From positions 62,001-126,000 of the forward strand of contig JABIFF010000022.1 of the NCBI GenBank assembly GCA_018650845.1: a stretch of DNA of 64,000 nucleotides, written 5' to 3'. Position 1 is the first letter of the stretch. Each line of letters starts with the position of its first letter. Below, piece by piece: positions 16,167-21,942 of the stretch. Source of the DNA: Chloroflexota bacterium. Lineage in GTDB: Bacteria; Chloroflexota; Dehalococcoidia; Lucifugimonadales; Lucifugimonadaceae. The notes beneath the pieces were generated by a model. It made no database searches, was not told the origin of the DNA, and saw nothing but the letters and a program-made list of their open reading frames with translations. The translations under genes and the position numbers were made by a program.

Positions 16167-17222
16167 ATGAGCGATAAACCCGTACGACTAACCGAACTGG
16201 CAACCTGCGCCGGTTGAGCTGGAAAGCTCAGCGCGAGTGAACTTGCCCAGGTCTTGGGCAGGCTGCCAACACCAACCATCACCGATCCAAACGTGCTGGT
16301 TGGAACTGAAACCGGCGATGATGCTGCCATCTACCGGATAGACGAACGCGTCGCTCTCGTACTCACAAATGACTTCTTTGCACCCATAGTCGACGATCCT
16401 TACGACTACGGCCAAATCGCCGCAGCAAACGCCCTAAGCGACATCTACGCAGTTGGTGGACGACCAATTACGGCACTCAATATCGCAGCGTTCCCTCGTG
16501 AACTTGGGCCAGATGTAATTGCGAAAATCCTCGAAGGCGGACAGGCAAAGGCTGAAGAAGCGGGGATTTTGATCATCGGCGGGCACACCGTCGACGACAA
16601 AGAACCTAAATACGGACTTGCCGCTACTGGCATCGTCACTCCCGGCGAGCAAATCACGAATGCCAACGCTCAACCCGGCGACGTGCTGATTCTCACCAAG
16701 GCAATCGGCTCTGGATTTATTACTACGGCAGGAAAAGCTGGAACCGCTCCTGCAGATGCGATTGCCGCAGCAGTGAAGTCGATGGCGACTCTGAACAAGG
16801 GCGCAGCCGACGCCATGATCGAAGTTGGAGTGAATTCAGCTACCGATGTGACTGGATTCGGCTTGCTCGGGCATCTTTCGCAAATGGCGAAGGCAAGCGG
16901 TGTGTCGGCGACTTTGAACTGGCCAAAGATTCCGTTGCTAGAGGGAGTAATGGAGATTGCCCGGGCTGGATCGATGTCGGGTGGAACAGCTCGCAACATG
17001 GAAGCGCTCGAAGACAAAATTGTTCTTGGAGAAGGCATTACCGAGTTCGAATTCATGATTCTTGCCGATGCCCAGACGTCTGGTGGCATGCTCATTTCAG
17101 TTCCAGAAGAACGATCTGACGCCCTTGTAAAGAGTCTAGTTGCTAATCAAACACTTTATAGTGAGGTTGTCGGCAAGGTCACCGCAGATGGCGATCCCGG
17201 CGTTATAACGATCAATAGCTAG
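16167..17222 (+). CDS. selD: selenide, water dikinase, selenocysteine-containing
   Basis: 351 residues if TGA 16215-16217 is read as selenocysteine. Makes selenophosphate from selenide and ATP, the Se donor for Sec-tRNA. The TGA is codon 17 in the context CAGUAGK, the position of E. coli Cys17 with its downstream Lys20. Without read-through the frame starts at MGRLPTPTI and lacks the catalytic N-terminus. Downstream motifs are typical: DDAAIYRID, LTNDFFAPIVDDPYDYG, GGHTVDD, TDVTGFGLLGHLSQM and DAQTSGGMLIS. The ATG at 16167 has no strong Shine-Dalgarno. It is divergent from lysA. Confidence 0.93.
16215..16262 (+). promoter_or_regulatory. selD UGA codon and candidate bacterial SECIS element
   Basis: The TGA at 16215-16217 is followed by a hairpin with stem TGCCC (16244-16248) and GGGCA (16256-16260), apical loop AGGTCT and one bulged T. 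From memory the loop is the same as in the E. coli fdhF SECIS. The loop G is about 33 bases after the TGA, inside the 16-37 base range described for bacterial SECIS. A smaller hairpin (TGAGCT/AGCTCA) includes the TGA itself. Confidence 0.75.
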
Positions 17223-20859: not shown

Positions 20860-21942
20860 TCAGCCCAATCCCCAAATATCAGTCTCGGGATAGAAATCGT
20901 TCCAAGCGAACCAGAACACATTGATCGCATGGACCCGTTCGAGCGCACTCCCTGCAAGTTCACCCCGAACAGCCTGACCCGTAAACGGCACCCAAAGCGA
21001 TCCCGTTTGTGAATCCCTAAGCCACTCACGACCATCCTGTTCGACCAACTCGAAATCAAGCGTCTGCCCATCAACGGCAGCACCATACGCGAGCGCGGTA
21101 TCGGTACCCGGATCGAAGTACACAACCGTAGGATTTCCAGCGTGTGAAAGCTGAATCAATTGCTCAGTGCGAAGCTCCGAATGCGGAAAAGCCACCGGCT
21201 CTGAATCAAAGCCAAGCCCCAGCACCAATTCCTTCGTCGGTAATCGATCATCACGATTAGACTCGCCAATCACCCCAGCTGAACGACCTCCGTAGTAGCC
21301 AACGTAAGGATCGCCACCACGGCTGCCCTTACGAAGAGCAACGGTCGATGGGTGAGTCTCTTTCCACTTCTCCCACGTCGTAAGAGTCAGCGGAACTGTT
21401 TCGAGCATAGTTCCAACTAAATCCCCGCGAACCGACTGCGATAGGAACTGACTCCACAACGACTCCGTCTCACGGTCGTACATCACCAGAGCGTTCATGA
21501 TCAGCTTGCCCGAAACACCAAATTCGTGAACCACACCGTTTATCTCTCTGGAATACCCGATTCCAGTAAAGCAAAGCGGTCACCACGTAACGGCAATCGG
21601 CTTGCCGCCCACCACATCGTTCACAATCTCGTGTCGACTTAGCAACGGAACCGAGTAAGCACGTGCATCACCATTGATCTCCACGCCCAGAACTAGCTCG
21701 TCAGGGTCATATGTGTCATCGGCAACGCTCTGCTCGACGAACCGCGGAGCCTCTATCGACGGAATAGCGTCGAAACCGAGCAGCGTAACGATCTCAAGCG
21801 ATTTCTCTTCGGTCGAATTACGCGCACTGTTCGAATTCACCACAACAGTCTCTTCTGGGGCGATCGACGTTCCGGCCGTGGCGATCCAGAGAACGTACCC
21901 GACTAGCAGGGCAATTAGCCCTATCCCAACTACCTTATGCAT
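20860..21942 (-). CDS. DUF3179 family protein with selenocysteine (UPLC motif)
   Basis: 360 residues if TGA 21580-21582 is selenocysteine at residue 121. The frame is otherwise open on both sides. N-terminal half: a signal anchor (VVGIGLIALLVGYVLW), then the family's VLGVEINGDARAYSVPLL and RHEIVNDVVGGKPIAVTW. The TGA follows, then PLCFTGIGY and EFGVSGKL...ALVMYDRETESLWSQ, all continuous DUF3179 sequence. Family members as I recall them have VTYCPLC here, so TGA replaces the first Cys. The second Cys (residue 124) is kept. The ATG at 21942 has GAGG 5-6 bases upstream; GTG at 21948 is an alternative. Function unknown; the motif suggests extracytoplasmic redox chemistry. Confidence 0.88.
21548..21582 (-). 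promoter_or_regulatory. UGA codon and candidate SECIS hairpin in the DUF3179 gene
   Basis: On the minus strand the TGA (21580-21582) is followed after 13 bases by a perfect 7-base-pair hairpin, CTGGAAT-CGGGT-ATTCCAG (21548-21566). The 5-base loop has G at its second position, 22 bases after the TGA. Size, spacing and loop G fit the bacterial SECIS consensus. The hairpin lies in coding sequence, so part of the pairing could be chance. Confidence 0.7.

Follow-up and report, generated by a model that had tools for sequence, protein, structure and literature searches.

A DUF3179 domain-containing protein is tabulated as a selenoprotein with the motif UxxC/T in two reviews (PMC9312934, PMC13188914), each of which gives one accession for it, MBW1804167.1 in the former and MDJ0986319.1 in the latter. 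In the portions of these articles available to us, PMC9312934 cites Zhang and Gladyshev 2007 for DUF3179 selenoproteins as well as work on a deltaproteobacterial symbiont of Olavius, and PMC13188914 regards most uncharacterized selenoproteins with such motifs as likely redox proteins and also describes selenoproteins of the CxxU type. A third article (PMC9230427), in its accessible part, merely names DUF3179 in a table row. The words Chloroflexi, Chloroflexota and SAR202 are absent from the main texts of PMC9312934 and PMC13188914, and our literature search, which for the most part did not extend to full texts, found no report of a DUF3179 selenoprotein in SAR202 or of a link between DUF3179 and a Rieske-like fold. 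Pfam assigns no function to DUF3179, and the family is scarcely mentioned in the literature searched.

The window analysed here, a stretch of 64,000 nucleotides of Chloroflexota DNA, contains a DUF3179 gene with an in-frame TGA. Its product resembles the tabulated proteins in belonging to the same Pfam family and in the placement of the putative Sec first in UxxC, a match made on the table rows. Because the two reviews already tabulate DUF3179 with UxxC/T, the claim of an earlier note that this was an undescribed selenoprotein family fails. The review entries, as far as these sources were accessible, consist of the motif and one accession each, and the subtypes, the hairpin evidence and the fold are not in them. 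As far as searched, what is new here is the breadth in Chloroflexota, the repeated Cys/Sec exchange, the tie between residues 127 and 131, the internal duplication and a weak but consistent similarity of the predicted models to the Rieske-like fold. The UxxC active-site motif is also shared with selenoproteins of the thioredoxin/glutaredoxin type, as these are presented in the accessible sources; unlike those, the window protein has its best fold matches among Rieske-like structures and only DUF3179 in Pfam.

The DUF3179 gene and its in-frame TGA

The gene (20860..21942, minus strand) starts with an ATG at 21942 and ends with a TGA stop at 20860. The earlier note had joined two minus-strand frames over a single TGA (21580..21582, minus strand), and translation with readthrough of this codon indeed gave a product of 360 residues in which codon 121 is the only internal TGA, the final TGA being the ordinary stop. 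Codon 121 replaces the first Cys of C-P-L-C and thus forms position 1 of U-P-L-C. The joined product matched PF11376 with an E value of 2e-89 over model positions 2-292 of 292 (300 bits against a cut-off of 27), and the pieces on either side of the TGA each matched the same family separately, at positions 2-64 and 66-292, which upholds the proposed continuity of the domain across the TGA. DUF3179 was the sole Pfam family found in the window protein and no NCBIfam family was found, at the thresholds used in these profile searches; in another DUF3179 member a Redoxin match in Pfam was at chance level (E 0.12). Since NCBIfam assigns no family, automatic annotation probably splits the window gene and its kin, so that a family that uses Sec and is common among SAR202 and other Chloroflexota may go unnoticed.

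A helix predicted at the N terminus (residues 3-22, 21877..21936, minus strand) is hydrophobic in sequence and had a pLDDT of about 51 in the AlphaFold model. This low-confidence helix is compatible with the membrane anchor claimed earlier; the protein is likely membrane-anchored and probably extracytoplasmic. Judged from its sequence, the gene almost certainly encodes one DUF3179 protein carrying Sec at residue 121. The joint explanation that we favour, and regard as probable, is that of an anchored DUF3179 selenoprotein in which UGA would be decoded as Sec by way of a downstream hairpin and U-P-L-C would serve as a redox pair.

Cys/Sec exchange, domain duplication and the role of UxxC

Four DUF3179 genes were found in the genome from which the window comes. 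One reads CPLC (contig C13); in the other three, TGA takes the column of the first Cys, giving UPLC (the window), UPIC (C12) and UILC (C8). The CPLC paralogue has the same domain and the CxxC column and is 35% identical to the window protein; it differs in having Cys, in forming 4 of 6 stem pairs of the hairpin and in an N terminus that by eye follows the lipoprotein N-terminus rule, whereas the window protein has a likely helix anchor. DUF3179 was present in 113 of 294 sampled genomes of the class. In these 113 genomes, 53 DUF3179 places had TGA as their sole stop codon, 2 had TAG only and 2 had mixed stops (in genomes G248 and G256). The UxxC codon was TGA in all 53 TGA-only places, two of which (L165 and L168) had one extra TGA, and in both TAG-only places the TAG stood elsewhere than at the UxxC codon. 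A census of 149 aligned domains gave 93 CxxC, 46 UxxC and 10 other forms, with both positions missing in 8 of these 10; it took 103 of the stop-free places and omitted seven TGA fragments shorter than 230 residues (all UxxC) and two TAG rows. The column of the UGA is Cys in homologues, in agreement with the earlier reading that the TGA replaces the first Cys of the CPLC motif. All 46 Sec forms had Sec at position 1 and Cys at position 4. Their subtypes include UPLC, UTLC, UIKC, UIRC, UIVC, UVAC, UILC and UPIC, and the hairpins differ in several groups. An IQ-TREE tree with the hairpin columns excluded showed ten changes of the Sec label, at least seven of them forced by starred branches; this quick tree is unrooted for direction, and the C12 paralogue is a long branch in it. 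In a phylum sample of 400 genomes, at least 11 outside the class had a DUF3179 place containing TGA, counted irrespective of where the TGA lay. From these sequences, DUF3179 selenoproteins look widespread in SAR202 and other Chloroflexota, with Cys and Sec apparently exchanged about ten times.

The genome taken as that of Ca. L. marina (G190) has four DUF3179 genes of the TGA type, one of them with an extra TGA. In this gene (L168, G190:C1:2387562-2388005, closed genome) the second in-frame TGA lies eight codons before UPIC, at a place where relatives have Gly, and it may be a second Sec, decay or an error. In L165 (G276:C99:14591-15304, a MAG) the additional TGA is found in VLGLE-TGA-NGEARAY besides the TGA of UIKC.

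Repeated Cys/Sec exchange at one codon points to the active residue and makes the function testable. We infer that the most likely role is extracytoplasmic selenol/thiol redox chemistry, in which Sec121 would attack and Cys124 would resolve via a selenenylsulfide, outside the cytoplasm. It is fairly likely that UxxC of the window protein is a redox couple, and this reading fits because Cys and Sec were swapped repeatedly and Sec came first and Cys second in 46 of 46 Sec forms. The UxxC motif by itself is insufficient proof of redox chemistry, and the Sec-first order is a weak argument since CxxU selenoproteins also exist. Clustering of the neighbouring ORFs of 32 fetched loci and the window revealed no recurrent neighbour that names a pathway. 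The largest clusters (28 and 11 of the 33) corresponded to DUF3179 itself and, where inspected, to an antisense ORF; the next in size comprised 7 loci and looked recF-like on inspection. Smaller clusters had 6 and 5 loci, and several of the 5-locus ones lay outside the near relatives of the window.

The profile comparison of the two halves of the protein (pairwise E 4.9e-36, probability 99.9) confirms, at the level of sequence, that DUF3179 is internally duplicated. Repeat 1 (residues 76-202, 21337..21717, minus strand) bears UPLC, and repeat 2 (residues 232-356, 20875..21249, minus strand) is without C/U-xx-C in the window protein. The AlphaFold model (47 rows) had a mean pLDDT of 89.6 and displayed two similar beta-rich halves. 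When the full model was compared with the PDB by Foldseek, 15 of the best 50 of 638 matches had a probability of at least 0.8, with E values from 4e-3 to 0.16 (best 4.4e-3, and none below 1e-3 among the matches listed) and target TM scores of 0.38-0.63 for small domains and near 0.2 for longer chains. All 15 were Rieske-type or NirD-type. Similar results were obtained with repeat 1 alone (pLDDT 96.4), for which the five listed matches with a probability of at least 0.5 were again all of the Rieske/NirD type (E 0.1 to 1.2, query TM 0.34-0.41). The matched structures include AioB, KshA and NirD, which we take to have the Rieske-like fold.

The fold of DUF3179 is possibly Rieske-like, a lead that comes from predicted models. 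The window protein is a tandem duplicate of a beta-rich domain that kept the C/U pair in the first copy only. The predicted topology is what the window protein would have in common with Rieske ferredoxin and NirD, with weak support; it differs from them in its tandem duplication, in the CxH...CxxH ligand set, for which no clear His counterparts were found in the window protein, and in sequence. Profile comparison with Rieske sequences, local and global, gave nothing significant and shifted in register, and the 47-row profile had no match at E <=1 among PDB sequences. PF00355 was absent from the ten families listed for the 47 members at E <=10, a search in which filters remove most weak matches. 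Visual inspection gave about 32 residues between 'NG' and UPLC, similar to the roughly 30 between 'EG' and the second Rieske box of L113, a likeness on which we do not rely. Three genomes of other families in the same order (G306, G239 and G309) have 37 to 59 PF00355 matches per genome, and the own genome has 0 at E 0.001.

A tentative extension, which we rate as possible and still doubtful, is that of a tandem Rieske-fold protein whose cluster site in the first copy was rewired to C/U-xx-C and which would act as an extracytoplasmic selenol/thiol reductase or use Sec as a ligand. The main rival, which we rate as unlikely, also makes the protein a selenoprotein but has U121 and C124 as ligands of a metal or iron-sulfur site within a domain of Rieske-like fold, with no redox cycling of the pair. 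It would agree with the uniform type of the listed fold matches (15 of 15 at a probability of at least 0.8 for the full model, 5 of 5 at a probability of at least 0.5 for repeat 1) and with the joint loss of the C/U pair in 8 of 10 cases. However, the E values of these matches are weak, the Rieske profile comparison was non-significant and unstable in register, the His ligands have no clear counterparts, and the restriction of Sec to position 1 resembles UxxC thiol oxidoreductases, though this last argument is itself weak.

Conservation of the TGA and of the hairpin that follows it

The selenoprotein reading was compared with related loci (n = 53, from a similarity scan of public genomes), of which 52 had Chloroflexota-type titles and most were MAGs. 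The equivalent of codon 121 was TGA in 51 of the 53 loci, as it was at the UxxC codon of every TGA-only place in the class; the earlier note had suggested looking for TGA or Cys at this column in SAR202 genomes. One of the two exceptions, a gammaproteobacterial MAG (L105), has Cys instead of TGA. The other (L100, 16-825) is a decayed orthologue with CGA for TGA, Ser for the second Cys and a broken frame; in it the loss of Sec accompanies the loss of the gene. In L107 the gene is frameshifted, yet the TGA is present, and in L104, a frameshifted MAG gene, the motif reads UPLR, the second Cys being replaced. The nearest locus (L055, 90% identity) comes from Ca. Lucifugimonas marina JH1073, an isolate in culture whose closed genome was obtained with PacBio according to the accessible part of PMC10444878. 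Since this genome has TGA at the codon, an error of metagenome assembly is not the general cause. Codons 3' of the TGA that differ between the window and L055 comprised 87 synonymous and 23 non-synonymous ones, and dN/dS against the orthologues L055-L057 (79-90% identical) was 0.05-0.06, a value that is only rough because dS is saturated.

A SECIS-like hairpin lies at 21548..21566 on the minus strand, with arms at 21566-21560 and 21554-21548 and the loop CGGGU at 21559-21555. It consists of 7 bp (CUGGAAU-CGGGU-AUUCCAG), and its loop G lies 22 nt after the A of UGA. In bacterial SECIS elements the apical loop has a G close to its start, as it does in the hairpin of this gene. Folding of the single window sequence gave a z of -2.30 against shuffles. 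Comparative pairing was measured in an alignment (A3) of 50 of the 53 loci and the window, that is 51 sequences, 48 of them distinct, which omitted the decayed L100, the Cys form L105 and the frameshifted L107; another alignment (A2) held 46 of the 53 loci and the window. Columns 17-23, counted from the TGA, paired with columns 29-35 in 97.9% of cells vs 83.4% in shuffles, and pairing as high as observed occurred in 0 of 500 shuffles. Compensatory changes on both sides were seen in 34 cells vs 6.1 in shuffles, controls with slid partners were 20-47% paired, and the loop G (column 25) was invariant. Sequence, folding and covariation therefore agree on the 7-bp hairpin with a loop G at 22 bases that had been claimed.

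The stem was found in the Sec orthologues and was largely missing in the Cys homologues. Scored over 7 pairs, 44 of the 51 Sec sequences formed all 7 and the other 7 formed 6, whereas 33 Cys homologues, scored over 6 pairs, formed only 1-5. Codons 127 and 131 were exact reverse complements in 47 of the 51 Sec orthologues; among Cys homologues this held for 0 of 33 in one set and 2 of 94 in another, the two sets overlapping. Hairpin pairing ties residues 127 and 131 to each other in the Sec orthologues, giving pairs such as Gly/Ala, Ala/Gly, Gly/Ser and Ala/Ser; of the 94 Cys homologues, 66 have an acidic residue (Asp/Glu) at position 131. The hairpin z had a median of -1.78 across 46 Sec forms and of -0.08 across 94 Cys forms (p 5e-12), with values below -1.5 in 29 of 46 vs 13 of 94, and it was above -1 in 9 of the 46 Sec forms. 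The stem of the orthologues was not formed in the paralogues on C12 and C8 of the own genome (4 and 2 of 7 pairs); the C8 paralogue has a different hairpin (z -3.41) and the C12 paralogue none of note (z +0.68). L064 (about 1-1900) carries two DUF3179 genes side by side, one with WCPLC and one with WUPLC. They make a natural Cys/Sec pair in which the stem has 2 of 6 pairs in the Cys copy and 7 of 7 in the Sec copy.

That the TGA is a true stop, leaving a pseudogene or a 120-residue fragment, we consider very improbable. The lack of an NCBIfam family and the existence of one decayed orthologue (L100) would suit such a reading, but selection is purifying on both sides of the TGA, the codon is kept in all but two of the related loci and is followed by a covarying hairpin, and the two pieces belong to one domain.

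Selenocysteine machinery and its association with TGA-type genes

Under the selenoprotein reading, SelB and tRNA-Sec would insert Sec at UGA codon 121, directed by the downstream hairpin to which the comparative evidence points. The source genome (2.48 Mb in 24 contigs, 87% complete) was searched for the selenocysteine genes that the earlier note had proposed to look for, and these were recovered: selB on C13, selA on C6, and tRNA-Sec with anticodon TCA as equal-scoring matches at the ends of C3 and C17 (L001 1501-1594; L002 5-98), which probably represent the same gene, situated at a contig break. selD, encoding selenophosphate synthetase, lies in the window itself at 16167..17222 on the plus strand (TIGR00476, E 4.1e-112), 3.6 kb from the DUF3179 gene, and it has an in-frame TGA at 16215-16217 in UAGK, so that the earlier description of a nearby and apparently Sec-containing SelD stands. 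This TGA is of the UxxK type, and hairpins are predicted downstream of it. That a variant code or unspecific read-through puts some other amino acid at the TGA is hardly credible, for although the frames are open under such codes and 2 of the 53 TGA-only places have one further TGA elsewhere (L165, L168), the window gene itself terminates with TGA, a TGA falls on the Cys column in 53 of 53 places and the genome has Sec machinery.

The association of selB with TGA-type DUF3179 genes was weak across all genomes, with selB passing in 33 of 38 TGA genomes and 55 of 75 others (p 0.08). It was clear only at a completeness of at least 90, where selB passed in 26 of 26 TGA genomes vs 38 of 50 other DUF3179 genomes (p 0.004), and the five TGA genomes below the line were all 69-87% complete. 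In this comparison selB status was entered by hand from the best E values (pass, E <1e-72), and the genomes with mixed stops, G248 and G256, were counted with the non-TGA genomes; G256 (93% complete), whose match was under the cut-off, lacks selB. DUF3179 genes free of TGA were also observed near selB, at about 260 bases in G074:C140:47297-50350 and at about 6-6.5 kb in G000:C13, G190:C1 and G099:C6.
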